A DNA stretch of 64,000 bases from Pseudanabaena galeata CCNP1313 (GTDB lineage Bacteria > Cyanobacteriota > Cyanobacteriia > Pseudanabaenales > Pseudanabaenaceae), in NCBI RefSeq assembly GCF_029910235.1, contig NZ_CP112874.1, positions 496,001-560,000 on the forward strand, in the 5' to 3' direction. Of the stretch, positions 4,572 to 45,335 are shown in pieces. Every line of letters begins with the position of its first letter. Position 1 is the first letter of the stretch. The notes beneath the pieces are model-generated. The model was not told the DNA's origin. It did not search any database and saw nothing but the letters and a program-made list of their open reading frames with translations. The position numbers and the translations under genes are program-made.

Positions 4572-4799
4572 ATGTTGTTTAAGTCATACAAAAATATTCT
4601 GCCAGCTTCGGTTGCCTTCATCGGGGGGATAGTATTTATTGTCGGTCAACCAGAATTTGCGCTAGCAAATCATCAAGCAGAATATACACCAACGGAACGT
4701 CCTAGACCAAAACGAACTCAAGGCGGCGGATCACGCTTAACCCTGCAAGTTACTCCACCTTCCTTTAAATTACAACCTTCACAAAACATCGTTTTGTAA
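4572..4799 (+). CDS. Small secreted hypothetical protein
   Basis: I do not recognise this 75-residue protein with certainty. It has a convincing signal peptide: basic MLFKSYKN, a hydrophobic core to about residue 28, and a cleavage site ALA-NH near 32. A proline/arginine-rich stretch PTERPRPKRTQGGGSR follows. That stretch resembles the start of DUF928 proteins (secreted, often downstream of CHAT/TPR proteins), so the gene may be a shortened DUF928 member; the rest of that domain is missing. The 330 bp before it, after the tRNA, is AT-rich with no other gene visible. Confidence 0.55.
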   Translation: MLFKSYKNILPASVAFIGGIVFIVGQPEFALANHQAEYTPTERPRPKRTQGGGSRLTLQVTPPSFKLQPSQNIVL

Positions 4800-29955: not shown

Positions 29956-30050
29956 GGTTTAGTGGTCTAGGCAATTGGAGATCCCAACACACCGCCAGAA
30001 GGGACTTTAGATACAGAACTTTGTGAGGATGATCGACTAAAATGGCACTA
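29956..30050 (+). pseudogene. DUF5615 PIN-like toxin fragment
   Basis: The frame GLVV-stop-AIGDPNTPPEGTLDTEL matches the middle of DUF5615 toxins (normally DLVVWAIGDPxxPPxGTLDxE), with TAG in place of the tryptophan codon. It is an isolated remnant. The rest of the 29624-30076 spacer shows no recognisable gene. Confidence 0.6.
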
Positions 30051-30076
30051 GAATCTTGTATGCCTAAATAACCACT

Positions 30077-30472
30077 ATGCTTACGACATCCCACACATAT
30101 GTCTTACCCCTATCGACAAATACTCATGGCACAATTTTAGTCAGTAATACTCGCGTAACACTCGATAAAGTTATCTTCAGTTTTAATCAAGGCGCAACGT
30201 CATAAGAAATAGCATCTCGCTATCCCTCACTTGAGTTGTCTGATGTCTATAGTACAATTGCTTTCTATCTTGACCATCAGCAGGAAGTAGAAGAATATTT
30301 GCAACAGCGTCAGCAAAAAGCGCTGGAAGTACGCAAACAAAATGAGTTGAGATTTGACACCAAAGGTTTGCGCGATCGCTTACTCGCCCGTCAAGCAGCA
30401 AAACATCCATTCTCTCAATACCCCATAAAGAATCTAGGAAATTCCTATGCAAATCAAGTATTTGATGGATGA
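30077..30472 (+). pseudogene. DUF433 antitoxin gene with premature stop
   Basis: From ATG 30077 the frame reads a short leader, then SNTRVTLDKVIFSFNQGATS, an in-frame TAA at 30203-30205, and EIASRYPSLELSDVYSTIAF with EVEEYLQQRQQ and KGLRDRLLARQ. Together these make one complete DUF433 antitoxin interrupted by a single nonsense codon. Its 3' end overlaps the start of a DUF5615 frame by 26 bases, the usual antitoxin-toxin coupling. Confidence 0.75.
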
Positions 30473-30632
30473 AAATCTCCCACCAATTTATCAAATACAG
30501 CTACGACGGAAAGAACCTGATTTAGTGGTCTGGGCAATCGATCATCCTTCGCTGGATGACGAATATCGCGATCGCCTTCAAGTAACTTTACGCAAAGAAC
30601 TAGACTCAGCAGAGATCACCGCATTAACATGA
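30447..30632 (+). pseudogene. Truncated DUF5615 PIN-like toxin
   Basis: It starts with the family motif MQIKYLMDENLPPIYQIQL (acidic DEN) and continues KEPDLVVWAIDHPS. The next 25 residues no longer match the family and stop at 61 residues instead of about 115, so the catalytic C-terminal half is lost. The partner is the broken DUF433 gene upstream. The following 200 bp to the HlyD gene hold no clear gene. Confidence 0.7.
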
Positions 30633-30828
30633 TGCTCTACTAGTGAACCATCTTCACGATCCTGAATGTTGGCATGATAAGAATGACTCAAAGCACCAGA
30701 CAGGCGATCGCACCGCAACACCTCCCATACTTCAGGCACTTCGCTTATCTCGACTAGTCGCCACTTCCTCAAGCAATCGCATCGCCTCAACAGAAACAAG
30801 CATGTCACCACAAGAAGAAACTCTTTTT

Positions 30829-32163
30829 TTATGGCTTTTTATCTGGTAGTTTTACAAATACGCGATCGCCGACTTTTGCACCACTTAAAATTTGAGTCTG
30901 ATTATCCACCGTTGTCCCAATCGTCACGGGTTGAAATTTGGACTTTCCCTTTTCATCAGCAATTAATAAACCTGTTTGCCCTTCTTCCGTGACGATCGCC
31001 ACCGTCGGCACAACCAACGCACTATTAATTCTCTGACCAATAAAGCGCAAATCAGTATTCATACCCGATTGCAACTTATCTTTGCCAGTTTCTAAGATTA
31101 CCCGCACTTGGAAGGATGTCACATTCTGCTCAATGATCGCTTCAGGCGCAATCAAACGCACTTTGCCCTTAAACACCTCAGTTGGAAAAGCATCAGCAAT
31201 AATTTCTACTTCTTGACCAACCTTAATTTGGGAAATATCCACTTCAGGGACTTTAGCAATGATCTCTAAGCCATTAGCGATCGCCACAATCGAAGTCGAT
31301 GTTGAAGAATTGGTTGCCGAAGCAGTTGTTGTCGGTGTGACAAAGGCTCCTGCATTGGCATATTTTTGAGTGATGATGCCCGCAAAGGGAGCGCGAATAA
31401 TCGTATCTTCGATCTGGACTTCGATGATTCTGATACCAGCGATCGCTTGAGCAAGTTGTGCTTCAGCTTGGGCAATATCTTCAGCACGGCTACCATTGCG
31501 GGTTTCTTCCAATAGACGAGTTGCCTCCATCAGATTGGCTTGAGCCGTTTGCAAGTCCGCCTGAGCGCTGCGATCATCAGTTACAACCTCATCAAAGCGA
31601 TCGCTAGAAATGGCTCCTTCAGTTTGTAAACCCTGAAAACGAGTTGTTTTCATGTTGGTTAAGGCTAAGCGCGATCGGGCTGCATCTAGACGACCACGAG
31701 CAGCATCCACCCTCGCCTGAGCGGCTGCAATATCTTCAGGACGGCTACCATTACGTAATTTAAGTAAATTAGCTTCACTTGCCGCCGCATTAGCCTGAGC
31801 CTGATAAAGCTGCGGGATCAAGTTTGCATTGTCCATTCTAGCGATGACTTGCCCCCGATTAACTCGCGCCCCTTGCTCAACCAATAGCTCAATTAGTTTT
31901 CCTGCCTGCTTGGGACTGAGGTTGACAGTTTCAATGGGTACAACAGATCCGCTAGCTTTAATTTTGATATCTAAAGACTTAGACTCAACTAATTGAGTTT
32001 GGTCATTAATTGATGTTCGGTTTTGATTCATGCTAGCCAAAACGCGAAAGGCTGTAAATCCACCGCCTAGCACAACGACGAGTAAAACTACAACGAACCA
32101 AGGCTTTGTCCAAAAACTTTTGGGCTTTTTATTTTCTTGTTTGGGGGAAACAGTAGTTTGCAT
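30829..32163 (-). CDS. HlyD/RND-type periplasmic adaptor (membrane fusion protein)
   Basis: A membrane fusion subunit of an efflux or export pump (DevB/HlyD/AcrA type). From the ATG at 32163 (MQTTVSPKQ) it has 444 residues: one N-terminal transmembrane helix (about 20-42), a biotinyl-lipoyl half VNLSPKQAGKLIELLVEQGA, a long coiled-coil hairpin (about 110-240) with two near-repeats NGSRPEDIAAAQA and NGSRAEDIAQAEA, the second lipoyl half IRAPFAGIITQKYANAGAFV, and beta-barrel domains. The frame extends 37 codons further upstream but through hairpin repeat. No inner-membrane pump gene lies next to it. Confidence 0.88.
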   Translation of the reverse strand: MQTTVSPKQENKKPKSFWTKPWFVVVLLVVVLGGGFTAFRVLASMNQNRTSINDQTQLVESKSLDIKIKASGSVVPIETVNLSPKQAGKLIELLVEQGARVNRGQVIARMDNANLIPQLYQAQANAAASEANLLKLRNGSRPEDIAAAQARVDAARGRLDAARSRLALTNMKTTRFQGLQTEGAISSDRFDEVVTDDRSAQADLQTAQANLMEATRLLEETRNGSRAEDIAQAEAQLAQAIAGIRIIEVQIEDTIIRAPFAGIITQKYANAGAFVTPTTTASATNSSTSTSIVAIANGLEIIAKVPEVDISQIKVGQEVEIIADAFPTEVFKGKVRLIAPEAIIEQNVTSFQVRVILETGKDKLQSGMNTDLRFIGQRINSALVVPTVAIVTEEGQTGLLIADEKGKSKFQPVTIGTTVDNQTQILSGAKVGDRVFVKLPDKKP

Positions 32164-32229
32164 CGAGATTAAGCCTGATCGAAGCTGACGGTATGAAGAA
32201 TTATATCTATAGCAATTACCAATTAAACG

Positions 32230-32296
32230 AACCACAAGGAATTTTTTGAAAGTGTTGTATGACAACACTTTCAAAAAATTCCTTGGTTTGGGTTTA
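32230..32296. repeat. Hairpin repeat, family E
   Basis: AAGGAATTTTTTGAAAGTGT / ACACTTTCAAAAAATTCCTT stem followed by GGTTTGGGTTTAAG. The same core is at 39199 and 42366. Confidence 0.75.
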
Positions 32297-32382
32297 AGGG
32301 AAGATCGCTATATATAAGTAAGTTATGGTATAAGCGTTAATTTTGCATCACCCCTCAGCATCATTGCTACGGGATTAACACA

Positions 32383-32440
32383 ATAACCCCAAGAACAAAG
32401 GTAACGCGAAGCGTTACCTTTGTTCTTGGGGTTATTGCAA
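32383..32440. repeat. Palindrome upstream of the FHA-cyclase gene
   Basis: Arms AATAACCCCAAGAACAAAGG and inner GTAACGC around GAA form a 55-bp perfect-looking hairpin. Confidence 0.7.
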
Positions 32441-32520
32441 CCCTCAAAAAACGGTATATTAGCAAAAGCAAGGACTCAAAGAGACGCAGAAAATTTGTAA
32501 ATCCACTCGTAAATTTATAT

Positions 32521-33555
32521 TTGGGGGTTAATAACCTTGTGAGTCAGCCTGTCACAACTTGGGATGAAAAACCACATATCGTACTTCATGGATCTCAAGG
32601 TACGATGCAGATTCCCCTTGTGAATGCATATTCTTGGACGTTAGGGCGCGGCTCAGAAAATGATATCCCCCTATCGGATAAATGTGCATCGCGCAACCAC
32701 GCCATGTTTCAAATTGTTGGAGAAAGTAGTTATTTTCTGATCGATCTTGGTAGTCGCAATGGTTCATTTGTGAATGGACGACGGGTGACCATTCCCATCA
32801 ACTTAAAAAATGGCGATCGCGTCACCCTTGGCGAAACAAATTTAGAATTTTATTGTCCTGAGACGATTACTTCTCCCGATACTAGCAGTACGCAAAACGA
32901 AGAAAATACCGATGCGGCGGCGACGGCGATGCTGCATAAGCGGCAACTAATTACAGTTTTAGTAGTTGATATTCGGGATTTCACCAAACTGACTCAGCAA
33001 ATGGATGAGCATATTCTCTCAGAGGCGATCGGCACATGGTTTCGCCGAGCTGGTGAGATCATCGATCGCCATGGTAGCTGGGTAGATAAGTACATTGGTG
33101 ATGCGGTGATGACTGTCTGGATTCACGAGGCTGGCAAGGGTTCAGATACTGTGGCTACCCAAGATATGCTCAAAGTCTATCGCGCTCTCTATGAACTGTA
33201 TGAAATGAGCAATGAACTCAATCAGCAGTTTGAATTACCCTTTCAATTGCGTGTAGGTGCAGGGATAAACACTGGCTATGCCATGGTTGGACAAATGGGA
33301 ACTAGTGAGCATCCAGACTATACGGCTCTTGGCGATACAGTGAATGCAGCTTTTCGATTGGAGTCCTCAACTAAGCAGTTGGGCTTGGATGTAGCGATCG
33401 GTTCGGCAACTTATAGTCATACGCCCTATGCGGCGGTATTACTACCACTTAAGCAATATTCTGTGGAGCTTAAAGGCTATACGACTCCCACGATTACCTA
33501 TGCTGGCACGTTTAACGAATTAGGAACCTATATCCAGAAGCTAGACGCAGATTAA
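32521..33555 (+). CDS. FHA domain-adenylate/guanylate cyclase (class III)
   Basis: A soluble signalling enzyme. Residues about 20-110 form an FHA phosphothreonine-binding domain (TLGRGSENDIPLSDKCASRN and GSRNGSFVNG). Residues about 140-330 are a class III nucleotide cyclase domain: VLVVDIRDFTKLT with the first metal Asp, DKYIGDAVMTVW with the second, and TALGDTVNAAFRLES with the transition-state Asn and Arg. The first codon is TTG at 32521; GTG at 32539 is an alternative. FHA-cyclase proteins are a known cyanobacterial type. The substrate, probably ATP, rests on K-D pair positions I did not resolve. Confidence 0.9.
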   Translation: MGVNNLVSQPVTTWDEKPHIVLHGSQGTMQIPLVNAYSWTLGRGSENDIPLSDKCASRNHAMFQIVGESSYFLIDLGSRNGSFVNGRRVTIPINLKNGDRVTLGETNLEFYCPETITSPDTSSTQNEENTDAAATAMLHKRQLITVLVVDIRDFTKLTQQMDEHILSEAIGTWFRRAGEIIDRHGSWVDKYIGDAVMTVWIHEAGKGSDTVATQDMLKVYRALYELYEMSNELNQQFELPFQLRVGAGINTGYAMVGQMGTSEHPDYTALGDTVNAAFRLESSTKQLGLDVAIGSATYSHTPYAAVLLPLKQYSVELKGYTTPTITYAGTFNELGTYIQKLDAD

Positions 33556-33559
33556 AACT

Positions 33560-33596
33560 ATCAAAGAAAGCCCTCCTTTGGAGGGCTTTCTTTGAT
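33560..33596 (+). terminator. Terminator of the FHA-cyclase gene
   Basis: ATCAAAGAAAGCCCTCC / GGAGGGCTTTCTTTGAT hairpin directly after the stop codon. Confidence 0.85.
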
Positions 33597-33615
33597 GATC
33601 CTATGGCGACTATTC

Positions 33616-33783
33616 ACTGATGTTACGTGGAACTTAGTTGATGAATCTCTTGCTGCTAGCGCGACAGGGCAACCACGGGGGGATTGCCCCTACCCCAAAA
33701 TTTAGAATTACCGTAGGGGCTGAGCCCCCGTGCCAGCACTAGACTTATGCGATCACAGGAATTCTATCCACGTAACAATAGTA
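33616..33783. repeat. MITE-like repeat, family D
   Basis: ACTGATGTTACGTGGAA at the left and TATCCACGTAACAATAGT at the right are inverted. The interior carries GACAGGGCAACCACGGGG and GAGCCCCCGTGCCAGC. Confidence 0.85.
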
Positions 33784-33827
33784 TTTAGATAATGTAGGGA
33801 TTTGGTTTCCAAATCCTCTTTCAAATA

Positions 33828-33880
33828 AGATTAAAAAAAGTAATGGCAGCGCTTCGCGCTGCCATTACTTTTTTTAATCT
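33828..33880 (-). terminator. Terminator of the AMIN-M23 gene
   Basis: A 53-bp palindrome AGATTAAAAAAAGTAATGGC with its complement, including T-tracts on both sides. The last codons and stop of the peptidase gene lie in its right arm. Confidence 0.8.
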
Positions 33881-34854
33881 TTGAAACTATTAGAGGCTAA
33901 ATCGAGAGTCACTTGGCGCAGTTGTAAATAATCCATAGGATCAACGGCAGTTCTGCCATCAGGTTGAATTTCAAAGTGCAGATGTGGCCCAGTGCTGCGT
34001 CCTGTAGAGCCAACTTCCGCGATCGCTTGTCCCTTGCTCACAACTTGCCCTTTTGATACAAACACCCTGTTGGCATGGGCATAAAGCGTCAACGCACCAT
34101 TCTCATGGCGCAACTCGACCACATTGCCATAGCCCCCGTTTGACCATCCCGCATAGGTGACTACACCACTTGCCGCCGCAAAAATTGGTGTACCAGTGGG
34201 AGCCGCAAAATCAACGCCTTTATGCAGTTTTCGTTCCCCTGTGATTGGATGCACACGCCAGCCGAACCCAGAACTGATTGCTGCGCCTGTAACTGGGAGG
34301 GAAAAATCAGAAACACTATTAAGATCGATCGCTGCAATACTTTGGGGAAGTTGCATCGTCCAATGTCCGGGTTGTCTGGATTTGAGGCGTAAATCTTGAG
34401 GATTGAGGGTGACTTCGGGCGAAAGCTCTACAACCATTCTGGTGGTATTGGCATCAACCTGTCCGACGCGCACCGATTGCACTCCGCGTCCGACGCGCCG
34501 CCTTACCGTTGGGCCCTGATAGACAATCCCTGGTAAGTCAATCACGATGCGCGTGGGATTATTAATCACAGTTCCCTTCGGCTCAATATCTTTTTTGAGC
34601 GAAAATTCGATCTTGCTATCGGTTAAATCATAGACGAAGGTTTCGAGACGATTGGCCTGTGCTATGGGTGTTGCGAGCGTAACACTACCAGCAAAACCAC
34701 ACAAAGTTAGTGATAACAGGCGTATATTCAGGGATTGGGATTTATTGGCTGACTTGCGATTAGACAATAAATTAAAAAACTGGTGGGAGCGAGACATAAA
34801 GTTTTGCATGGGAACGTTGCGCTGTAGGACAGTTGAGACCAAGCTACAAGCCAT
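33874..34854 (-). CDS. AMIN domain-M23 peptidase (murein hydrolase-like)
   Basis: A periplasmic cell-wall enzyme or hydrolase activator. After a signal segment (hydrophobic to about residue 67) comes an AMIN domain (about 70-160, VIDLPGIVYQGPTVRRRVG) and then a LytM/M23 zinc peptidase (about 190-310): HPITGERKLHKGVDFAAPTG with two metal ligands, LYAHANRV and GPHLHFEIQ with the others. All M23 ligands (H, D, H, H) appear present, so it may be an active endopeptidase. The ATG at 34809 is an alternative start. Confidence 0.9.
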   Translation of the reverse strand: MACSLVSTVLQRNVPMQNFMSRSHQFFNLLSNRKSANKSQSLNIRLLSLTLCGFAGSVTLATPIAQANRLETFVYDLTDSKIEFSLKKDIEPKGTVINNPTRIVIDLPGIVYQGPTVRRRVGRGVQSVRVGQVDANTTRMVVELSPEVTLNPQDLRLKSRQPGHWTMQLPQSIAAIDLNSVSDFSLPVTGAAISSGFGWRVHPITGERKLHKGVDFAAPTGTPIFAAASGVVTYAGWSNGGYGNVVELRHENGALTLYAHANRVFVSKGQVVSKGQAIAEVGSTGRSTGPHLHFEIQPDGRTAVDPMDYLQLRQVTLDLASNSFKD

Positions 34855-34995
34855 CCAAAAATGTACAAAAAGCCCTGTAATTCGACTTGTAGAAGGCTAG
34901 GGATAATGCTCTAAAAATTTGCGTAACGAGAACGAGTGAGATTCTACATCAATTTTGATGAAATATGACAACTCGCGATTATTAGTCATATAAAA

Positions 34996-35068
34996 AGTTG
35001 TTTTTACAGACAAGTACTTGTCTGCAAAAACAACTTTTAGGTGGCGCGGCGAAGCCGCACCACCTAAA
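34996..35068. repeat. Double hairpin
   Basis: Two adjacent hairpins: AAAAGTTGTTTTTACAGACA with its inverted partner, then TAGGTGGCGCGGC / GCCGCACCACCTA. Confidence 0.7.
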
Positions 35069-35091
35069 ACATCTAAATAATGAAGATCTAA

Positions 35092-35300
35092 GCGGTATAT
35101 TTGTTGCAACCTCAAAAAATCTGCTTGCATCTAAGCCGTTAAATTAACGTCAGTTCGACGAAAGCGAAAAATGGTAAGAATCGCTAGGCAATTCTTACCA
35201 TTTTTCGCCATTTGCGTCGTGCTTCGCACGACGCAAATGGCTATATCGAACTCACGTTAAATTATGAGCTTTGCCTCAAAACTCAGGACTGAGATCGCCA
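35092..35300 (+). other. Partial duplication of the pyrF 5' region, split by a MITE
   Basis: 35092-35146 matches 37653-37704 (GCGGTATATTTGTTGCAA through GCTTGCATCTAAGC), and 35261-35300 matches 37701-37740 including the pyrF start codon region (ATTATGAGCTTTGCCTCAAA). Between them a 109-bp repeat is inserted. After about 35300 the similarity to pyrF stops, so only the first 12 or so codons are duplicated. Confidence 0.88.
35147..35255. repeat. MITE, family C, with 9-bp target duplication
   Basis: A 109-bp element beginning ACGTCAGTTCGACG and ending TATCGAACTCAC, with two internal hairpins (AATGGTAAGAAT... and GCCATTTGCGTCGTGC...). It is bordered on both sides by GTTAAATTA. The paralogous site before pyrF has a single GTTAAATTA and no element. 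Confidence 0.92.
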
Positions 35301-35414
35301 AGCTACTAGTAAATTACTCAATTATCCTGCCAGATATCGCACAACCAAATAGGTGGTAACCTCTTGGGTAACTATAGAGGAATATTATTTATTGACTAAT
35401 CATGCTTTGGCTAG

Positions 35415-37463
35415 TTGATCTTCATGCAGAAACCTAAACTCCCTAAAAATGAAAGCGATCGCCTAGAAGCTCTCAATCGCTACCATATTCTTGATACCTT
35501 ACCAGAACAAGAATATGACGACTTGACGCGACTAGCTGCGGAGATTTGTGGCACTCCGATCGCCTTAATATCATTAATTGATCGTGATCGACAATGGTTT
35601 AAGTCAAAAGTGGGTTTGGATGTGTCGGAAACGTCACGCGATATCTCCTTTTGTGGTCATGCAGTTGCCGATAGTGCCTTCTTAAATGTTCCTGATACAA
35701 CCCAAGATGCTCGTTTTGCTGACAATCCTCTGGTGGCAAAAGATCCGAGTATTCGCTTTTATGCGGGTATGCCCTTAAAGACATCAGATAATTTTACTCT
35801 AGGGACTTTGTGTGTCATCGATCAACAGCCTAGAAATCTGACCGAAAAACAAATTCGACAATTAGAATCTCTCAGTCGGCTAGTGATTAGCCTGTTGGAA
35901 TTGCGCCGCAGTAATGCAACTCGCAAAGCAGTAGAAGATGCGTTAGATGAACAATATAAACAGGAAGTCTTGCTTGCAGAAATCACCCAAAGAATTAGGC
36001 AATCTCTTAATTTAGATGCTATTTTCCAAATTGCCGCTCAAGAACTTCGTCAATCTATGAATGCAGATCGCATCGGTATATTTAAGTTCGATCCAGATTC
36101 TAACTGCTGCGACGGAGAATTCGTATCTGAATCTGTAATAGCAGGATTTGATTCGGTAATCGCATTGAAGATCCATGATCATTGCTTTGGCGATCAATAT
36201 GCTTCGTATTATAAAGAAGGTCGCATACAGGTTATAAATAACATTAACGAAGCGGGACTCACAGACTGTCATCAAGATATTTTACAGCGATTTCAAGTTG
36301 TTTCTAATTTAGTAGTCCCCATCATACAGATAGAGAATTTGTGGGGTTTGCTCTGTATTCACCAATGTTCAGCACCACGTCATTGGCAAGACTCCGAGAT
36401 TAATTTTGCAAGGCGAATTGCTAGCCAGTTAGAGATAGCCATTAAACAAGCCAGCTTATTTGAACTGTTAGAACAAGATCTCTTAGAACGAGAAAAGGAA
36501 GCCGACGCTAGAAAAATTCTACTGGCAGAACTTCAAGAAAGTGAATCCCGATATCGTTCAGTCATTACCAGTATGTCTGAAGGCATCGTATTGCAACAGG
36601 CCGACGGGCAAATTACTGCTTGTAATGAAAGCGCGGAAAAGATCTTGGGATTATCCGCAGATCAGATGCGAGGGCTTAAGTCCGTTGATTTTGAAAGAAC
36701 GACAATTCGAGAGGATGGCTCGATTTTTTTGAGTGAAGATCATCCCGCTATGGTTACGCTCAGAACTGGACAACCACAAATCAACGTAATTATGGGAATC
36801 TGTAAGGAAGACCGTCCGACAAGATGGATATCGATTAATTCCCAACCTTTATGTCATCCCGAGCAGACAGCCCCTTATGCTGTAGTAGCTTCTTTTACCG
36901 ATATCACAGAAAAAAAATCAGCTCAAGAAATGCTAAAAATTGAAGCGGAGTTAGCTCATGTTAGATCTTTAACTGATGGATTAACTCAAGTTGCTAATCG
37001 GCGCTGTTTTGATGATCGCTTACAAACAGAATGGCAACGTTCAGTAAGAGAAAAACAAAGTCTTTCCCTAATTTTCTTAGATATTGATTATTTCAAACTC
37101 TACAATGATTGCTATGGACATCAAGCAGGAGATACTTGCTTAATTCAAGTCGCACAAACTGCCGCTAGTCAACTCAAACGTCCTGCGGATCTTTTTGCCC
37201 GATATGGAGGCGAAGAGTTTGTGGTGATTCTACCCAATACGGATATGAAAGGTGCGATCGCCGTTGTCGAATTAATCCAACATGCTATTCATGATTTAAA
37301 AATTCCTCACGAGGCCTCTAAAGTCAGTCCTAATGTGACAATTAGCTTAGGTATTGCCAGCATCATTCCCACTCAAGAACAATCTCTTGAAGATCTCATC
37401 GCGATCGCCGACAAAAATCTCTATCAGGCAAAACAACAAGGACGAGATCGTTTTTATTGTTAG
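35415..37463 (+). CDS. GAF-GAF(cyanobacteriochrome-like)-PAS-GGDEF diguanylate cyclase
   Basis: A 682-residue soluble sensor. The first GAF (about 25-165) is of the common ILDTLPEQEYDDLTRLA type. The second GAF (about 190-345) resembles cyanobacteriochrome photosensory domains: a DxCF-type motif IHDHCFGDQY (Cys257) and a canonical chromophore-site motif DCHQDILQRFQVVSNLVVPI (Cys285). A PAS domain follows (about 375-500), then GGDEF with GLTQVANRRCFDD and active-site GGEEF at 598-602. The output is c-di-GMP synthesis. Bilin binding is an inference from the two cysteines. The ATG at 35424 is an alternative start. Confidence 0.88.
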   Translation: MIFMQKPKLPKNESDRLEALNRYHILDTLPEQEYDDLTRLAAEICGTPIALISLIDRDRQWFKSKVGLDVSETSRDISFCGHAVADSAFLNVPDTTQDARFADNPLVAKDPSIRFYAGMPLKTSDNFTLGTLCVIDQQPRNLTEKQIRQLESLSRLVISLLELRRSNATRKAVEDALDEQYKQEVLLAEITQRIRQSLNLDAIFQIAAQELRQSMNADRIGIFKFDPDSNCCDGEFVSESVIAGFDSVIALKIHDHCFGDQYASYYKEGRIQVINNINEAGLTDCHQDILQRFQVVSNLVVPIIQIENLWGLLCIHQCSAPRHWQDSEINFARRIASQLEIAIKQASLFELLEQDLLEREKEADARKILLAELQESESRYRSVITSMSEGIVLQQADGQITACNESAEKILGLSADQMRGLKSVDFERTTIREDGSIFLSEDHPAMVTLRTGQPQINVIMGICKEDRPTRWISINSQPLCHPEQTAPYAVVASFTDITEKKSAQEMLKIEAELAHVRSLTDGLTQVANRRCFDDRLQTEWQRSVREKQSLSLIFLDIDYFKLYNDCYGHQAGDTCLIQVAQTAASQLKRPADLFARYGGEEFVVILPNTDMKGAIAVVELIQHAIHDLKIPHEASKVSPNVTISLGIASIIPTQEQSLEDLIAIADKNLYQAKQQGRDRFYC

Positions 37464-37524
37464 GCAAGTTAAGTAAGTAGAGGATGGGTTTTATGAACAG
37501 TCTACTTTTTGTTTTTTTTATAAC

Positions 37525-37634
37525 GTGAGTTCGATATAGCCATTTGTGCCGCGCTTCGCGCGGCACAAATGGCGCAAAATGGTAAAAATTGCTTTGCAAT
37601 TTTTACCATTTTGCGCCATTTGTCGAACTGACGT
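37525..37634. repeat. MITE, family C (inverted copy)
   Basis: GTGAGTTCGATATAGCCATT at the left and CATTTGTCGAACTGACGT at the right, the reverse of the 35147 copy, again with two internal hairpins. No clear target duplication is visible here. Confidence 0.88.
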
Positions 37635-37705
37635 TAATATAGTCAGCCGTAGGCGGTATATTTGTTGCAATCTCAAAAACCTGCTTGCATCTAAGCTGTT
37701 AAATT

Positions 37706-39199
37706 ATGAGCTTTGCCTCAAAACTCAGGACTGCGATCGCTACTAATCAGAGCATTTTATGTTTGGGACTTGATCCAAATCCTGAAGTGATGCCTGACAA
37801 GTACAAGGCAAGATATGACTCGGAAATGAAGTCTGGCGCATATCCCGATCACGCTGCCTATCTGTGGGAATGGATGAACTTTATCATTCAATCCACGGCT
37901 GATCTGGTCTGTGCCTATAAGCCAACTTTAGGATTTTATACAGCGTTAGGGGCGGGCGGATTAGAGCTACTAGCCAAGACCTTAGCCGCTATTCCTCCAG
38001 AGATTCCGATCATTCTTGATGCTAAACATGCGGATCTCAATAGCAGCACAGTGATGGCAAAGACTGCCTTCGAGCAGTGGGGTGTGGATGCGATTACTTT
38101 GAGTCCTTATGTGGGACAAGATTTGGCGGCACGATTTTTGATGTATCCCGATAAAGCCATTTTTGTGAGTTGCTATTCATCGAATACAACTGCTCAAGAT
38201 TTTCAAGAATATCCCAATCCAGAGCAGCCCTTATATCTAAATGTGGTGCAAAACTGTCAAGCTTGGGCAGGAATGGATAATTTAGCCCTAGAGATTGGAG
38301 CGGCAAATCCTGAAGCTTTGGCAAAGGTGCGATCGCTGGCTCCTGAGCGCTTAATCTTAGCGAGAAGTATCTGGGCAAATAGTCAAGGCAGTGGTCAGCG
38401 CATCGAAAACTTAGCGGCTATTCTCAATGCTGGGCTAGATGCCAATGGTGGTGGCTTAATTTTGCCTGTGAATCAAGATGCGCTGGCGATCGGTGAACCC
38501 GCACAATTAGTGCGATCGCTACGGGATGAGGTCAATCAAGCGATCGCTTTGACTAAGCATCAGCGTCCCACCTGCGATCTATGGATGCCCAATGTTTGTT
38601 TGCTCGATCAAGCAGGACATCCCCATGCCAATCTGATCTTGCAGTTGTTTGATATTGGCTGCATTACCTTTGAAGAAACCGTGCAAGCCTCTGGTCAAAT
38701 TTTCCCCTATTACATCGATTTACGGCGAATTATTTCCAATCCTCAAGTATTTGATGCGGTAATCGGCACATATGCCGAGATCTTGCAAGATCTGAAATTT
38801 GATCGCATTGCAGGGATTCCCTACGGCTCATTACCTACAGCTTCGGGGCTAGCATTGCGTTTAAATTTCCCATTAATTTTTCCGCGTAAGGAGGTGAAAG
38901 CCTATGGAGCCAGACGCTTGATTGAAGGCAATTATGAAGCTGGTGAAACTATAGTTGTAGTTGATGATATTTTGATTTCGGGCAAGAGTGCGATCGAGGG
39001 GGCGCAAAAAATTGAAAGCTGCGGCCTAAAGGTCTGTGATATCGTCGTATTTATCGATCATGAGTCGGGAGTATGCGATCGCCTCCAAAAAAGTGGATAT
39101 TCACCCCATGCGGTGTTAAAAATCTCTGAAATAAATGAGACACTATACCAATCTGGGCGTATAACTGAGAAACAATTTATTGCTTTATCGCATTCTTAA
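37706..39199 (+). CDS. pyrF: Bifunctional OMP decarboxylase / orotate phosphoribosyltransferase
   Basis: A cyanobacterial PyrF-PyrE fusion making UMP from orotate. Residues 1-275 are a type 2 OMP decarboxylase with LCLGLDPNPEVMP (about 19) and the active-site lysine motif ILDAKHADLNSST (about 92). Residues about 290-497 are the OPRTase, with GIPYGSLPTASGLAL and the PRPP-binding loop VVVDDILISGKSA (about 415). It starts at ATG (MSFASKLRT). The first codons and the upstream 55 bp are duplicated at 35092-35300. Confidence 0.95.
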   Translation: MSFASKLRTAIATNQSILCLGLDPNPEVMPDKYKARYDSEMKSGAYPDHAAYLWEWMNFIIQSTADLVCAYKPTLGFYTALGAGGLELLAKTLAAIPPEIPIILDAKHADLNSSTVMAKTAFEQWGVDAITLSPYVGQDLAARFLMYPDKAIFVSCYSSNTTAQDFQEYPNPEQPLYLNVVQNCQAWAGMDNLALEIGAANPEALAKVRSLAPERLILARSIWANSQGSGQRIENLAAILNAGLDANGGGLILPVNQDALAIGEPAQLVRSLRDEVNQAIALTKHQRPTCDLWMPNVCLLDQAGHPHANLILQLFDIGCITFEETVQASGQIFPYYIDLRRIISNPQVFDAVIGTYAEILQDLKFDRIAGIPYGSLPTASGLALRLNFPLIFPRKEVKAYGARRLIEGNYEAGETIVVVDDILISGKSAIEGAQKIESCGLKVCDIVVFIDHESGVCDRLQKSGYSPHAVLKISEINETLYQSGRITEKQFIALSHS

Positions 39200-39287
39200 A
39201 GCGCTTTGCGCTCAAACCAAAACATAATAGATTTTTTGAAAGTGTTGCTTAGCAACACTTTCAAAAAATCTATTATGTTTTGGTATA
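39199..39287. repeat. Hairpin repeat, family E
   Basis: Begins AAAGCGCTTTGCGCTCAAAC. A long stem AATAGATTTTTTGAAAGTGT / ACACTTTCAAAAAATCTATT follows, then ATGTTTTGGTATAA. It lies right after the pyrF stop and could also end transcription. Confidence 0.8.
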
Positions 39288-39366
39288 AATATCACGAATA
39301 TAAATTTGTCTACGACAAATTTATATTCGCAAAACCATCGTTACAGATTATTGATTAGAGTTACGC

Positions 39367-40242
39367 ATGTTCAAAAGAATTAGTCTGTTACTTGTTTCTG
39401 TGGCAGTTGCAACGCTTGCGCCGATCGCCAATCCTGCGATGGCTGCCCAATCATCGAAACCTGCCCCTGCTGAACTGGAAAATATCGTATTTGCGCTGGA
39501 CAAAGCCGCCAGTAAGCAAGATATTGAAACAGTGATGAAATATTATGCTCCAACTTTTAATCATTCCGATGGGCTAACCCGCGATCGCTACAAGCAGACT
39601 TTGAGCGAACTCTGGCAACGCTATAAAAACATTACCTATCGCACCGAAATCTCCAAATGGGAAAAACAAGGCGACTTGATTACTGCGGAAACAGTAACGA
39701 TGGTGCAAGGGATGCGTGGGGCTGAGAATGACAACTTCAAGTTAGATGCAAGGTTGATTTCGACGCAGACCTATAAAAATATCAATGGACAGCTTCAGGT
39801 TGTATCGCAGCAAGTTTTAGCAGAACAGTCTTCGCTGAGCACGGGTGATGCACCACCGCCCGTTAAACTGAAAATGCCTGAACTAATAGGCGTAGGTCGG
39901 CAGTATGTCCTTGATGCGATCGTCACCGAGCCACTTGGGACAAGTTTATTGCTAGGGGCGGCGATCGAGGAACCTGTCGAAGCGAAGAATTATCTAAATG
40001 AAAACATGATCAATCTGCGTCCATTGCGTGCAGGTGGACTATTCAAAATTGGTCAGGCTCCTTTTTCGTCAGGCGATCGCTGGGTTTCGGTAGTGTTGGT
40101 ACGTGAGTCGGGCATTACGATCACTAGCCAGCGCTTGCGAGTTAGCAAAGATTTCACGGGCAATCAATATACTCCTTTACCTGAGCCAGATACGACTCCT
40201 AGCCGTGTCCGTCCACGCCCTAACAATAATCAAACCCTCTAA
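39367..40242 (+). CDS. Secreted NTF2-like hypothetical protein
   Basis: A 291-residue protein with a signal peptide (MFKRISLLLVSVAVATLAPI, cleavage near AMA-AQ at about residue 27). A nuclear-transport-factor-2-like (SnoaL-type) cone fold follows at about 35-150: ASKQDIETVMKYYAPTFNHS, then DGLTRDRYKQTLSELWQRY. The C-terminal beta-rich half (about 165-270) is unrecognised, and the tail is rich in Pro and Arg. It is probably a periplasmic ligand-binding or stress protein; no specific function can be given. Confidence 0.65.
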   Translation: MFKRISLLLVSVAVATLAPIANPAMAAQSSKPAPAELENIVFALDKAASKQDIETVMKYYAPTFNHSDGLTRDRYKQTLSELWQRYKNITYRTEISKWEKQGDLITAETVTMVQGMRGAENDNFKLDARLISTQTYKNINGQLQVVSQQVLAEQSSLSTGDAPPPVKLKMPELIGVGRQYVLDAIVTEPLGTSLLLGAAIEEPVEAKNYLNENMINLRPLRAGGLFKIGQAPFSSGDRWVSVVLVRESGITITSQRLRVSKDFTGNQYTPLPEPDTTPSRVRPRPNNNQTL

Positions 40243-40247
40243 ATTTC

Positions 40248-40282
40248 AAAGAAAAGGCGGCGCGATGCGCCGCCCTTTCTTT
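40248..40282 (+). terminator. Terminator
   Basis: AAAGAAAAGGCGGCGC / GCGCCGCCCTTTCTTT hairpin followed by T residues, downstream of the NTF2-like gene. Confidence 0.85.
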
Positions 40283-40285
40283 TTA

Positions 40286-40394
40286 ACGTCAGTTCGACGA
40301 AAGCAAAAAATGGTAAGAATCGCTAAGCGATTCTTACCATTTTTTGCCATTTGCGGCGTGCGAAGCACGCCGCAAATGGCTATATCGAACTCAC
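40286..40394. repeat. MITE, family C, with 8-bp target duplication
   Basis: ACGTCAGTTCGACG ... TATCGAACTCAC, 109 bp, identical layout to 35147. TCTTTTTA occurs on both sides (ending at 40285 and at 40396-40403), consistent with an 8-9 bp target duplication. Confidence 0.88.
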
Positions 40395-40424
40395 GTCTTT
40401 TTAGAAACTATTTAAGAATTGTCT

Positions 40425-40503
40425 AGATCCCCCCCAGCCCCCCTTAAAAAGGGGGGAGAATTAAATTCTTCCCCCTTTTTAAGGGGGATTGAGGGGGATC
40501 TCT
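40425..40503. repeat. Poly-C/poly-G hairpin repeat, family H
   Basis: GCCCCCCTTAAAAAGGGGGG followed by an inverted CCCCCTTTTTAAGGGGGATT. A second copy lies at 42490-42568. No coding sense. Confidence 0.8.
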
Positions 40504-40546
40504 TAGAACTTTTGACCGCAGCAAGTACTTCTTAAAATGGTTACTT

Positions 40547-40580
40547 AAATAAAAAAGCACCCGAAGGGTGCTTTTTTATT
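40547..40580 (-). terminator. Terminator
   Basis: AAAAAAGCACCC GAA GGGTGCTTTTTT hairpin at the 3' end of the minus-strand gene; its T-tract contributes the TAA stop. Confidence 0.88.
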
Positions 40581-41181
40581 AATTGCCAAATCGAGGTGGT
40601 GGTGGCTCGACTTTAAAAATGGTTTTCCAAGCTTCTACTGTGCCTGCGCCAATTGGAAAGTCTGTGGTTTGATCATTGTTCCACACAGCCCTAATCGTCG
40701 TATTGCCTGCGGGTAAACTTGTTAGAGCAGCAGCTAGCTCAGGATCAACCTCACCATCGGTATAGGTGTAAATCTTGCCTTGAACACTAAATAAAAGCGC
40801 TTTGGGCGATCGCGATCGCGATCGCTTTTCATAAACAGGCTCTTGATCGCTATAGCGTTGATTAATGTAGCGATCTTTGTGCCAGACGCGACGATTTTTC
40901 CAAACTCGGCGATAACCGACTACATCTGACCAATATTCCGTATATGTTGCTTTAATCCCCTGCTTTGACCAACTGGAAACAAAGGCAAAGTTATCGGTAA
41001 AGTGCTTGTCATAAACAAGTTTGCCATCAAAGGGATTTTCAACAATACTCGACCAAGGTACATTAGCGTCTTGGCTCACGGATACAGGTGTTACCGCAAA
41101 AGCACTAGGGGCGATCGCCAACAGTAGACCGATGCTCATTCCCCAAGCACTAATTCTCCAATCTAAGTATTTGTGGCGCAT
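40579..41181 (-). CDS. Secreted hypothetical protein
   Basis: A 200-residue protein of unknown function starting at ATG 41181 (MRHKYLDWR), with a signal peptide ending at SAFA-VT near residue 30. The mature part is rich in Trp, Tyr and Arg: SSWSKQGIKATYTEYWSDVV then VWKNRRVWHKDRYINQRY. The RSRSRSP stretch is encoded by three overlapping HIP1 octamers at 40806-40825. An upstream reading to 41262 has no support. It is monocistronic with its own terminator. Confidence 0.65.
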   Translation of the reverse strand: MRHKYLDWRISAWGMSIGLLLAIAPSAFAVTPVSVSQDANVPWSSIVENPFDGKLVYDKHFTDNFAFVSSWSKQGIKATYTEYWSDVVGYRRVWKNRRVWHKDRYINQRYSDQEPVYEKRSRSRSPKALLFSVQGKIYTYTDGEVDPELAAALTSLPAGNTTIRAVWNNDQTTDFPIGAGTVEAWKTIFKVEPPPPRFGN

Positions 41182-41232
41182 AGTATAGCTAACTAAATGG
41201 ATAATATAGATGCTTTTGAGCAGCCATTTGTT

Positions 41233-41339
41233 CCTAAGTACTTGTGCAAAATAAATTACCAAAACCCGTAAAGTTGCGCCCCGAAGGGGCGCAACTTTAC
41301 GGGTTTTGCTTTGTAATTTATTTTGCCTAGCTACTTATA
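41233..41339. repeat. Hairpin repeat related to family B
   Basis: Left end CCTAAGTACTTGTGCAAAAT, right end TTTTGCCTAGCTACTTA. Central hairpin CCCGTAAAGTTGCGCC / GGCGCAACTTTACGGG around a GAAG loop. Confidence 0.75.
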
Positions 41340-41350
41340 TTCTAATTACA

Positions 41351-41421
41351 GCGCTTTGCGCTCAAACCAAGAAAAATTTTGAAAGCTTTGCAAAGCAAAG
41401 CTTTCAAAATTTTTCTTGTGG
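41351..41421. repeat. Hairpin repeat related to family E
   Basis: GCGCTTTGCGCTCAAACC followed by AAGAAAAATTTTGAAAGC and its inverted complement; the left part equals the left part of the 39199 copy. Confidence 0.75.
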
Positions 41422-41456
41422 TTTCTCTGATCAGCAATTGCTTTGCACAGCCACTA

Positions 41457-41487
41457 TTGACTCTACCCTTAGGGGATAGTGTGTAAT
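41457..41487 (+). promoter_or_regulatory. MerR-type promoter/operator
   Basis: TTGACT at 41457-41462 and TGTAAT at 41482-41487 are separated by 19 bp, the over-long spacing typical of MerR-controlled promoters. The spacer contains a near-palindrome CTACCCTTAGGGGATAG. It lies 30 bp before a MerR-family gene, so autoregulation is the simplest reading. Confidence 0.85.
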
Positions 41488-41516
41488 CACAACAAGAGGT
41501 TGATGAGGTCAACGAA

Positions 41517-42329
41517 ATGCTCAAAATTGGAGATTTTTCTAAACTCAGTCAGGTGACTATTAAAGCCCTACGCCTCTATGACGAAATGGGTTTACTTAAG
41601 CCAATCTCCGTCGATCGCTTTACGGCATATCGCTTTTATTCGGCGACTCAATTACCGAGACTCAATCGTATCCTCGCCTTCAAAGACTTGGGATTCTCTT
41701 TAGAGCAAATTTCTCAACTGCTCAATGAAGAGATTTCTCCTGAACAGATGCGCGGAATGTTACGACTGAAGCAAGCTGATTTGCAACAGCAGATTGAGCA
41801 GGAACAAGGGCGATTGGTGAGAGTAGCAGCCCGTCTTAAACAAATAGAACAGGAGGATGTTATGTCTGATTACGAAGTTGTGATTAAGAAATTTGAACCG
41901 ATTACAGTTGCTTCAATCCGCGAGGTTTTGCCTAATTATGCGGCGATCGCTAAGCTCTTTCAAGAGCTATATCAGTATCTCGCGCAGCAAGGCGTTACTA
42001 AGTTTGAGTATGATGCGGGGATCTGGCATGACTCTGGATATAGGGAGAGCGATATCGATGGTGAGGCAGTTGTGTCTGTGCCTACTTCGGTCAAAGGGAC
42101 CGATCGCATTAAGGTCTATGAGCTTCAGGGATATGAGGCGATCGCCTGTGTGGTTCATCATGGTAGCTACAGCACTCTTAATAATGGTTATCAACATCTG
42201 CTAACTTGGATTGAGAATAATGGCTATCGCTGCATCGGAGCAAACCGTGAGTTCTATATCCAAGGTGGGGCTGAGTTAGATAATGAATCTTACATTACTG
42301 AGATTCAATTCCCAATCGAGAAAATTTAA
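41517..42329 (+). CDS. MerR family regulator with GyrI-like effector domain
   Basis: A BmrR/BltR-type multidrug-sensing transcription activator. Residues 1-70 form the MerR winged helix: IGDFSKLSQVTIKALRLYDE and YRFYSATQLPRLNRI. A coiled-coil dimerisation helix covers about 75-115, and a GyrI-like/AraC effector-binding domain about 120-270 (IKKFEPITVASIREVLPNY, FYIQGGAELDNESYITEIQ). No Cys cluster is visible, so the ligand is probably an organic cation, not a metal. No adjacent efflux gene is seen. Confidence 0.93.
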   Translation: MLKIGDFSKLSQVTIKALRLYDEMGLLKPISVDRFTAYRFYSATQLPRLNRILAFKDLGFSLEQISQLLNEEISPEQMRGMLRLKQADLQQQIEQEQGRLVRVAARLKQIEQEDVMSDYEVVIKKFEPITVASIREVLPNYAAIAKLFQELYQYLAQQGVTKFEYDAGIWHDSGYRESDIDGEAVVSVPTSVKGTDRIKVYELQGYEAIACVVHHGSYSTLNNGYQHLLTWIENNGYRCIGANREFYIQGGAELDNESYITEIQFPIEKI

Positions 42330-42365
42330 GTACCAAGCGCTGTAGGATTGCTATACAGTCGGCTT

Positions 42366-42441
42366 CACAAGAGATTTTTTGAAAGTGTTACTGCTTGACC
42401 CTTTCAGAAAATCTCTTGGTTTGGATTTAAGCGCAAAGCGT
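42366..42441. repeat. Hairpin repeat, family E (inverted, degraded)
   Basis: AAGAGATTTTTTGAAAGTGT with partner CTTTCAGAAAATCTCTTGGT, followed by TTTAAGCGCAAAGCG. Confidence 0.7.
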
Positions 42442-42489
42442 TTTAAGAGTGTGTTTGAGAAGTACCTGTTCAGCGTAAATTTCTGTTTT

Positions 42490-42568
42490 TACCCCCCTTA
42501 ATCCCCCCTTGCAAAGGGGGGAAACTTAAATTCTCACCCTTTGCAAGGGGGAGTTAGAGGGGGTAAAA
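42490..42568. repeat. Poly-C/poly-G hairpin repeat, family H
   Basis: CCCCTTAATCCCCCCTTGCA and inverted CTTTGCAAGGGGGAGTTAGA; matches the copy at 40425 in design. Confidence 0.8.
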
Positions 42569-42663
42569 AACTTCTCAAACACGCTCTAAAGACCAAACTC
42601 AGTGAGGGTTGTAAAAGCACAAAATGGCTATGTCATCCTGTGTTTTGGTATAAAATATCGATT

Positions 42664-43479
42664 ATGAATTATTTTCCTGATCATCGATATTTTGCTTACC
42701 TTACGTCACCCGCGATCGCCTCAATGCCAGACAAGCAAAATGCGGTGATTATCCAACCCATGGGGGCGATCGAGCAGCATGGCGCACATTTACCGTTGAT
42801 TGTCGATGCGGCGATTAGTATTGGCGTGCTAGCAAAGGCTTTAGAAAAATTAGACCCAGCCATTCCCGCCTATGCTTTGCCCCCTCTGTACTATGGCAAA
42901 TCGAATGAGCATAGTACTTTTGCGGGTACAATTACGATGCGATCGCAGACAATGTTGGCAGTCTTAACCGATATTGCCGAAAGTGTCTATCGAGCAGGAT
43001 TTCGGAAGTTGGCTCTGATGAATTCTCACGGGGGGCAGCCGCAGATTTTGGAAATAATTGCTCGTGATCTCCATGATAAATATCCTGATTTTGCGATTTT
43101 TCCACTTTTTACATGGCGCGTTCCCAATGTGGCTAAGGATTTATTGACTGAAAAGGAATTAGAATTTGGAATTCATGGTGGTGATGCTGAAACCAGTCTA
43201 ATGTTGGCGCTTTTGCCTGAACAGGTACAAATGGACAAGGCAGTTACCGAATATCCCTATGGATTACCTGAGCATAGTTTACTCAGTATGGAATCGGCAA
43301 ACCCTTTTGCTTGGGTAATGCGTGATTTGACGAAAAGCGGCGTATTGGGGGATGCTAAAGCGGCGACCCTAGAAAAAGGTGAAAAGATTCTTGATTCTTT
43401 AGTTGATGGTTGGGTGCAATTGATCGAAGATATTTATAAATTTGAGCAACCGAAGGCGTATGGCAATCATCTCCTCTAA
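42664..43479 (+). CDS. Creatininase family amidohydrolase
   Basis: A zinc-dependent creatininase-fold hydrolase (the family includes creatinine amidohydrolase, MftE-like and FAPy deformylase-like enzymes). From ATG 42664 ([10 protein letters not shown]) it has 271 residues with metal motifs [19 protein letters not shown] (Glu, His, Asp; about 36-54), [12 protein letters not shown] (about 120) and [14 protein letters not shown] (His, Glu; about 165). Substrate unknown. Its last 20 bases overlap the start of ruvB, suggesting co-translation. Confidence 0.85.
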
Positions 43480-44692
43480 ACCAAGTCCCAATCCTGAAGG
43501 CGATCGCCTTGCGAATCAGGTTGACCCTCCAAATCCATCGGCAGCAATTCCTGAAAAGACATCGGATAAAAAATCAACCTCCCGATCGTCTAAGAAATCC
43601 GCTAAAAAAGAAGTAACATCGCCCGAAATGCAGCAGGCATTAGATTTACTGCAAGCAGAAGCAACGCCAGAGGAAAAACTAGAAGATCAACTAGCAAAAG
43701 ATACTCCCACTCAATTTTCGGGTGACATCAATATTCGTCCCAAAAATCTCGAAGACTACATTGGACAGAAAGATTTAAAAGAACTGCTTCATATTGCGAT
43801 CGCGGCGGCGAAGTCACGGTCATCCGCTCTCGATCATTTGCTGTTATATGGCCCTCCTGGATTAGGGAAAACTTCTCTTGCGCTGATCATCGCTCAAGAG
43901 ATGGGCGTGCAATGTAAAATCACCTCGGCTCCAGCCCTAGAGCGACCCCGTGATGTGGCAGGTTTGTTGGTTTCTCTGCAACAGGGAGACATTCTCTTTA
44001 TTGATGAAATCCATCGTTTACCGAGCGTGACCGAGGAGATTCTCTATCCTGCGATGGAAGATTATCGCCTAGATATTACGATTGGGAAAGGTCAAGGAGC
44101 GAGGATTCGCAGTGTGCAGTTAAATAAATTTACACTGATTGGGGCAACTACGAGAATAGGGGCTTTGTCTTCGCCATTGCGCGATCGCTTTGGCTTTGTG
44201 CAGCATTTTCGCTTTTATGAGCAGGATGAACTAACACAGATTGTCTCTCGCAGTGCCAAGATCCTTGAGACTCCAATCCATGATGATGGCGCGATCGCGA
44301 TCGCCGCCCGATCAAGGGGTACGCCTCGGATTGCCAATCGTCTTTTAAAGAGAGTGCGGGACTATGCTGAAGTTAAGGCTAAGGGTGAACAGATTACAGG
44401 GGCGATCGCCGAATCAGCTCTGGAATTATTCAATGTTGATCCCAAAGGACTTGATTGGATTGATCGCAAATTGTTAACGGTGTTAATTGAGAACTTTAAC
44501 GGCGGCCCCGCAGGTTTGGATACCTTGGCGGCGGCGACGGGTGAGGATGCCCATACAATTGAAGAAGTGTATGAGCCGTATTTATTGCAGATTGGCTATA
44601 TCAATCGCACGCCTCGCGGTCGAGTGGCTACGGCGGCAGCATGGAAGCATTTAGGTTATTCTGTGCAAACGGCGATCGCGAGTTTGTTATAG
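43460..44692 (+). CDS. ruvB: Holliday junction DNA helicase RuvB
   Basis: The AAA+ motor that drives Holliday-junction branch migration with RuvA. From ATG 43460 it has 410 residues with a polar N-terminal extension of about 80 residues ([14 protein letters not shown]), then Walker [15 protein letters not shown], Walker [12 protein letters not shown], sensor [11 protein letters not shown], the Arg finger region LRDRFG and the C-terminal winged helix. An upstream TTG at 43442 is possible. The last 118 bp recur at 50575-50691. Confidence 0.95.
44574..44691 (+). repeat. Direct repeat, copy 1: 3' end of ruvB
   Basis: Runs from AGCCGTATTTATTGCAG to TTTGTTATA. It matches 50575-50691 with three substitutions and one missing base. 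The two copies bracket the TIR/CHAT/NUDIX cassette. Confidence 0.95.
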
Positions 44693-44756
44693 TGTGAGAT
44701 CGCTTTACTCTGAAATGCAAAGCAATATTTTGTTGAAATTATTACTTTGCAGGGTT

Positions 44757-45335
44757 TTAATCTTCTTTCTTCTTGGCGGATGAACCACGTCCTTTTGCAA
44801 GATCAGCATAGATTAAGGTTTCAATGCCCAATACTATCAGCAGTAAAAGTTCTATCCAAGATAGGATTGTAATGCTTAGAGGTGGATGAGGAACTAAAAT
44901 CCAGAATACTACTAAGGCAATGATTCCAGAAATAACAAATGTAATTTCGTCTACGATCAGTTGTTGAATTTTGCGGCGTTTACGATGTTTATCGTCTCTA
45001 TGAGCTATTTCCCAACCAAATAGAGTCTCACCGTCTGTATAACCTGTGTGTTCTTGTATTTTATCAACCAGTTTGTAGCGAATGTAACGCCCTATCGCTG
45101 ATATTTTTTCGTCGTTGACTACATAAGTCCAACCTAATATGAGGCATACCCAAGGCACGACTAAGAAAGCATAGTAATTGGTAGAGTTGGAAACGGTAAA
45201 CGAGATGATTGTACCAAATAAGCCTAGTGTCACGTAAAGCAAGTTATCTCGAAACCCAATGCGTTGGGCTTGCTCTGTTTTCAGCTTGTCGTATTCTTTA
45301 AAGAAAATTTCGAGAACTTGATCTTTCTCATTCAT
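44757..45335 (-). CDS. Multi-pass membrane protein, unknown, cassette member
   Basis: A 192-residue protein with four hydrophobic helices (about 29-48, 53-70, 128-147 and 153-174) and a charged cytoplasmic middle (RKRRKIQQL). The N-terminal KTEQAQRIGFRDNLLYV and the segment VNDEKISAIGRYIR are reminiscent of a widespread but uncharacterised cyanobacterial family. It is divergent from the TIR gene across a 150-bp AT-rich spacer. A role as a membrane effector, comparable in layout to small membrane proteins of nucleotide-signal systems, is only a guess. Confidence 0.6.
   Translation of the reverse strand: MNEKDQVLEIFFKEYDKLKTEQAQRIGFRDNLLYVTLGLFGTIISFTVSNSTNYYAFLVVPWVCLILGWTYVVNDEKISAIGRYIRYKLVDKIQEHTGYTDGETLFGWEIAHRDDKHRKRRKIQQLIVDEITFVISGIIALVVFWILVPHPPLSITILSWIELLLLIVLGIETLIYADLAKGRGSSAKKKED

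Follow-up and report, generated by a model that had tools for sequence, protein, structure and literature searches.

The start of pyrF occurs twice in a 64-kb stretch of the Pseudanabaena galeata CCNP1313 genome, once intact and once split by a short repeated element (family C). How did this arrangement arise, and what moved the element? The stretch, hereafter the window, covers positions 496001–560000 of a 4.93-Mb contig in a genome of 5.84 Mb. Taken as a whole, it is very probable that family C is a MITE moved by an IS982-family transposase, that it entered a redundant copy of the pyrF start, and that its hairpins have been altered by template switching.

The pyrF locus and its empty sites

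The upstream region and first codons of pyrF are found in interrupted form at 35092–35298 and in uninterrupted form at 37653–37740, both on the plus strand. The latter leads into the true reading frame (37706–39199, plus strand, 497 aa), which is designated as a putative pyrF from a reading of its sequence. Copy 1 of family C (111 bp, 35147–35257, minus strand, the ACGTGAG end being taken as the start) lies within the duplicated 5′ fragment and is bounded by the direct repeats TAAATTA at 35140–35146 and 35258–35264. At the true pyrF there is a single TAAATTA (37700–37706), the final A of which opens the start codon, and no family-C element at that site. The initial annotation was therefore right that a piece of the pyrF promoter and first codons is duplicated and interrupted here, and that the real gene has one target site and no element. 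The fragment at 35092 retains the upstream flank that is common to the relatives, while the gene itself stays at the true pyrF.

Two further copies exist in the window. The second (112 bp, 37523–37634, plus strand) is directly upstream of the true pyrF, in the orientation opposite to that of the copies at 35147 and 40286, and its flanks match at five of seven bases. The third (111 bp, 40286–40396, minus strand) has the target duplication CTTTTTA on its left (40279–40285, within a T-run following a hairpin) and on its right (40397–40403). The initial annotation had described the copy at 40286 with a repeat on both sides, which holds, and had counted it as the third copy while missing the one at 37523–37634. 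Every exact occurrence of the end ACGTSAGTTCGA in the window belongs to one of these three copies, which account for six in all; six more matches with two mismatches are about the number expected by chance. Nothing in Rfam matched window positions 30000–45000 at the gathering thresholds. After the third copy, at about 40400–40547, there is a second repeat of about 148 bp, which has numerous matches in the same genome, in one relative (G004) and in other species of the genus.

The empty state of the insertion site is seen outside this genome as well. An uninterrupted GTTAAATTATGAGC is present at the pyrF start of G012 and G008 and likewise at the true pyrF of the sister species G005; together with the true pyrF of the window, these give empty sites for this one insertion only. 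The insertion thus survives a comparison with relatives, in which the element might have been found at both places. G010 and G003 have the same sequence as G012 and G008 from CTAAATTATGAGC onward, and the pyrF start of G002 differs at the insertion site. A peptidase gene, which lies upstream in the window, adjoins pyrF in G012, G008, G010, G003, G009 and G002 with no GGDEF gene between them; in the stretches of G014 and G004 that were examined, nothing matched the peptidase gene.

In the window, a GAF-PAS-GGDEF gene (35415–37463, plus strand) lies between the two pyrF 5′ copies, so that direct repeats of about 90 bp flank it within 35092–37740. Among the pyrF loci examined, this gene and the repeats are common only to the window and G005, which marks the gene as an insertion by which the pyrF start was duplicated. 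Besides the pyrF fragment and the GGDEF gene, G005 has the MITE copy of 37523 at the equivalent place. Its pyrF fragment has no family-C element; a different element is found there almost exactly where family C sits in the window, between what by eye resembles a duplicated TA. That element (L068, about 4650–4760) is a hairpin, and its interior resembles, again by eye, the D1/D3 family of the window (1721, 2337 and 9295). Since G005 has the fragment with another element in it, the duplication of the fragment came first and family C entered after this genome and G005 had separated. Precise loss of family C from the G005 fragment is a possible alternative, though it needs more steps. The order of events would then be an early duplication of the pyrF start, inherited in common with G005, followed by insertion of the MITE into the redundant fragment, with the true pyrF and the relatives staying empty.

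We also compared the surroundings of the copy at 40286. By eye, the stretches of about 260 bases past the shared gene in G005, G008, G004, G002 and G003 contain no family-C element; the intergenic DNA of these relatives differs, so that the exact empty site of this copy is not demonstrable. In G002, a family-C match lies about 0.8 kb beyond the stretch. Upstream of pyrF, G002 also has a hairpin (L075, about 2257–2309) with a likeness to part of family C, at a position unlike that in the window.

Counted with the terminal ACGT at both sides, the element is 111 bp long and reads ACGT(C/G)AGTTCGA…TCGAACT(C/G)ACGT. To measure the target duplication, left and right flanks were compared at small offsets for 86 copies of this genome, which are those listed rather than all that the genome holds; each had at most one mismatch per 11-base end, a length of 95–125 and 40 bases of flank. 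In the ACGT-to-ACGT frame, 46 of the 86 have an exact 7-bp repeat and 57 a repeat of 6–9 bp (shuffled flank pairs give means of about 2.3 and 2.6, respectively), while 29 have none. Copies from relatives behave alike: 15 of 22 have an exact 7-bp repeat vs. 0.9 by shuffling, in a set that includes one element with another interior, from G025. The target consensus is AT-rich, TAAWTTA. The two ends are not quite equivalent, the first being CGTG in 82 of 86 copies and the opposite one CGTC in 85 of 86. The initial annotation had proposed a 109-bp element and a 9-bp duplication. Insertion between two target repeats stands, and both lengths have to be revised: a 9-bp duplication was rejected, because the extra GT belongs to the element's own end and the fitting frame is 7 bp, the usual length, within ACGT ends.

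Sequence variation in the two hairpins

The interior of family C is made of two hairpins with 3-nt loops. We examined their variation in the 82 of 86 copies with a length of 109, the outer A and T being left off (four copies were dropped), and in 19 relatives' copies of that length (three dropped). In loop A, TTC is found in 40 copies, GAA in 33, TTT in 4, AAA in 4 and GAG in 1, so that 81 of 82 loops belong to the reverse-complement pairs TTC/GAA and TTT/AAA. Had TTC turned into GAA by three substitutions, one at a time, mixed forms would be left, and these are missing among the 82. The two orientations are near balance (TTC/TTT 44 vs. GAA/AAA 37 of 82), and among the relatives' copies GAA is found in 11 of 19 and TTC in 5 of 19. 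Loop B reads TTA in 64 copies, TAA in 15, CTA in 2 and TCA in 1. Fourteen copies of this genome are the same at all the other 106 bases and carry TTC (7), GAA (6) or TTT (1) in loop A, as a single-step inversion of the spacer would leave them. One AAA/TTC pair was also found among copies that are otherwise identical.

The arms vary in a coupled manner. In this genome 46 stem cells are changed on both sides to a complementary pair, vs. 7.7 expected (500 shuffles, maximum 14), and in the 19 relatives' copies 37 cells are two-sided and 14 one-sided, with 6.4 two-sided cells expected by shuffling. When the mates were slid out of register as a control, only 0–2 coupled cells were left in this genome and 0–3 in the relatives; complementary changes of the two arms thus exceed both controls, although inherited changes enter these counts more than once. 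Among 53 sequence pairs with exactly two differences, eight differ by the swap of one complementary stem pair, whereas the eight slides of the mates, by 1–4 columns, together gave four such pairs, none of them complementary. In the terminal repeats, which are separated by 87 bases, 0 changes are coupled vs. 14 one-sided ones, and 78 of 82 copies retain the C/G mismatch. This contrast with the hairpins is weakened by the choice of copies, as those with more than one mismatch in an end had been left out.

These coupled arms and flipped loops correspond to a published signature. Template switching between short inverted repeats is described as homogenising the arms and inverting the spacer (PMC8604942, PMC8794818), and yeast spacers changing from ttc to gaa and from gaa to ttc are on record (PMC8604942). 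The published cases, as far as the accounts used here extend, concern yeast coding genes and RNA genes, while ours would concern hairpins in a bacterial MITE of high copy number (PMC8604942, PMC8794818). The pattern in the hairpins is established; the mechanism, which we infer, is that between insertions the polymerase would switch templates across the closely spaced arms and rewrite both internal hairpins, copying one arm onto the other and sometimes flipping the 3-nt loop. Because the coupled arms and the flipped loop match this signature, we think, from the sequences, that the hairpins are probably maintained by replication rather than by selection alone. A stronger version, in which replication and not structural selection keeps the hairpins, through arm copying and loop flipping repeated so often that the orientations are near equal in copies diverged by a few per cent, is put forward only tentatively.

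Could structural selection have kept the paired changes instead? The structure might be an RNA terminator or one needed in transposition, and the two loop forms would be two old subfamilies. The predicted DNA folding of the element is strong (−42 kcal/mol, z −10.9), and the 46 complementary double changes in 82 copies are what such selection would also produce. The number of loop inversions is likewise compatible with it. In minimum spanning networks, for which 109-bp sequences resolve weakly, the events number 0.4 to 7 for loop A, 6 to 9 for loop B and 18 to 28 for the arms, depending on the distance measure; loop A needs seven inversions when each is scored as a single step and almost none (0.4) when each is scored as three differences. 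On plain differences, therefore, one or a few old inversions followed by amplification of both forms could suffice. The occurrence of both forms in relatives and the AAA/TTC pair speak for more than one inversion of loop A. Pairing selection by itself leaves the inversion of an unpaired loop unexplained. Moreover, neither one-sided intermediate was sampled for 7 of 12 compensatory classes in this genome and 12 of 17 in the relatives. One-sided changes are tolerated in the stems (65 cells in this genome), and the stems vary no less than the unpaired positions: 2.7% vs. 1.9% are off consensus, the unpaired positions including ends selected for few mismatches. That one-sided cells are more numerous in this genome than the 46 two-sided ones counts, on the other hand, against template switching. 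We regard structural selection with two old subfamilies as rather unlikely, less so than any other rival of template switching and IS982-driven insertion considered here.

An IS982-family insertion sequence with the same ends

The initial annotation attributed mobilisation to an unknown transposase and proposed a search for a full-length IS with matching terminal repeats. That search was carried out, and the transposase need no longer be called unknown. The genome was scanned for a CGTG end followed by an interior other than that of the MITE. Of 35 such places, 30 became loci, and 15 of these are ends of 13 elements whose ends lie about 1001 bp apart; as the pattern demanded CGTG, it would overlook any IS copy in which both ends have C. 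The full IS is about 1003 bp long and encodes a 303-aa protein, which is an IS982-family transposase (NCBIfam NF033520 IS982, E 3.2e-76, 256 bits vs. a cut-off of 130; also PF13612). The 303-aa frame is open in 12 of the 13 elements, and these 12 are mutually 98.4–100% identical. At E 1e-60, the genome contains 20 matches to the transposase, 17 of them full length and unbroken.

The IS and the MITE agree in several ways. In a blastn comparison of one MITE copy with one IS, the ends are identical at 15 of 16 and 13 of 13 bases, and no stretch in common was found beyond the ends. The C/G asymmetry of the MITE ends recurs in 11 of the 13 IS copies, though these were found by their CGTG end. In the MITE frame, 11 of 13 IS elements have duplications of 6–8 bp, and 7 bp is the commonest length in the IS (8 of 13) as in the MITE (46 of 86). 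Outside this genome, ends of the same type (at most two mismatches per end) are present at 54 of 80 IS982 loci of other genomes, many of which also show 6–8 bp duplications. At 111 bp, family C is too short for a transposase gene, and 115 exact-ended elements are found in the genome. Family C is thus a MITE of an IS982-family IS: both have the same terminal inverted repeats in one genome, the parent transposase falls within IS982, and the duplication length is equal. The interior of the MITE bears no trace of the IS; family C did not, then, arise from the IS by simple internal deletion and is classed as an end-sharing MITE. In this scheme the element of about 1003 bp would supply the transposase to the non-autonomous family C, and, judged from the sequences, its transposase probably acts on the MITE in trans.

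Elements of other sizes with related ends were noted. Two internally deleted IS982 copies (L046, 1197–1520, about 324 bp; L051, 1500–2021, about 522 bp) are possible intermediates towards non-autonomous elements, and tiny elements of about 34–38 bp consist of little beyond both ends (L052, L055 and L059, near 1483–1537). An end pair spanning 1495 bases in L037 (25–1519) was considered as a cargo element and rejected, as it is a family-C copy split by a different IS, whose frame is 426 aa long; TAATCTA is still legible as the outer duplication of the split copy.

The motif CGTSAGTTCGA occurs 459 times in this genome vs. 10 times for its reversed control, and the 115 elements with two exact ends 80–100 bp apart compare with 0 for the control. 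Of the other species of the genus that were searched, four have 17, 6, 4 and 2 exact-ended elements and the remaining 18 have none. Looser matches to family C were obtained in 15 of 38 genomes, all within this genus, with counts per genome that are lower bounds. Among 15 genomes of other genera, one (G025, of another family) has a single element with the same ends and a different interior (L061, 1500–1617, 118 bp), unrelated to family C.

The distribution of MITE and IS does not coincide everywhere. G012 and G022 have 6 and 4 exact-ended MITE copies; at E 1e-60, the only transposase relative in G012 (a 90-contig draft) is 50% identical, and none was found in G022 (8 contigs). Conversely, G018 has an IS at 94%, no exact-ended MITE and at least three looser MITE matches. 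The distribution across these three genomes counts against a simple driver picture. A different transposase, from an IS family with duplications of 7–9 bp, might move the MITE, its resemblance to IS982 ends being due to chance or past capture; that MITE and IS have only their ends in common, and that two species have MITEs with no close IS982 transposase found, can be read in this way. We consider such a transposase very improbable, given the 13 to 15 bases in common at each end, the G/C asymmetry in most copies of both and the usual 7-bp duplication, as well as the same end type at 54 of 80 IS982 loci of other genomes. It is scarcely credible that the repeats spread through gene conversion or recombination among hairpins, with the direct repeats of copy 1 as a by-product of the pyrF duplication: although the window has several further hairpin repeat families and the pyrF fragment of about 90 bp was duplicated with no transposon recognised, the family-C ends are precise, the 7-bp duplications vary in sequence from site to site, and the G005 fragment has another element at that spot and no family C.

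Relation to known elements and significance

Movement by an IS982-family transposase can be set beside other systems. Nezha is reportedly a cyanobacterial MITE, as is family C, the likeness being drawn from the title of the 2008 report by Zhou et al. alone. The closest named match to the transposase of this genome, at 94% identity, is from Pseudanabaena mucicola FACHB-723, in which an IS982-family IS of 1000 bp (L177) has the ends ACGTGAGTTCGA on both sides and a 7-bp duplication; unlike the gene-less family C, it encodes a transposase. A closer counterpart in kind is MITECca01 of Cardinium (cOegib), an element of about 240 bp with 169 copies that is linked to ISCca4 of the IS982 family with 68 copies (PMC9769881). 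In both cases the inverted repeats match those of an IS982-family IS of the same genome, intact parent copies remain, and the MITE outnumbers the parent IS (PMC9769881). MITECca01 differs in keeping a few parent bases inside its left end, whereas family C has the ends only; the passages that describe it do not mention paired hairpins, an empty site or the duplication length (PMC9769881). The kind of element has thus already been reported, and family C adds a further one (PMC9769881). In the open-licence literature, we found nothing that joins cyanobacteria, miniature inverted-repeat elements and template switching, nothing on compensatory changes in the stem-loops of bacterial palindromic miniature inverted-repeat elements, and nothing on IS982 combined with repeat-element terms.

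The present analysis adds to this the identification of the driver, the correction of the duplication to 7 bp, a series of empty orthologous sites for a single insertion, and the signature of template switching. An orphan repeat becomes a MITE with an identified and apparently intact driver, so that its activity is directly testable, and the pyrF locus offers a clean natural before-and-after pair for an insertion. If our reading of the hairpins is true, compensatory changes in such repeats do not prove that an RNA is functional, and the reason for which perfect hairpins persist in bacterial MITEs becomes testable. Under the stronger version, such hairpins would owe their perfection to mutation and not to function. 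The hundreds of dispersed copies would then serve as a natural record of how templates are switched in a bacterial chromosome, from which the influence of replication strand, loop size and arm length could be learned.
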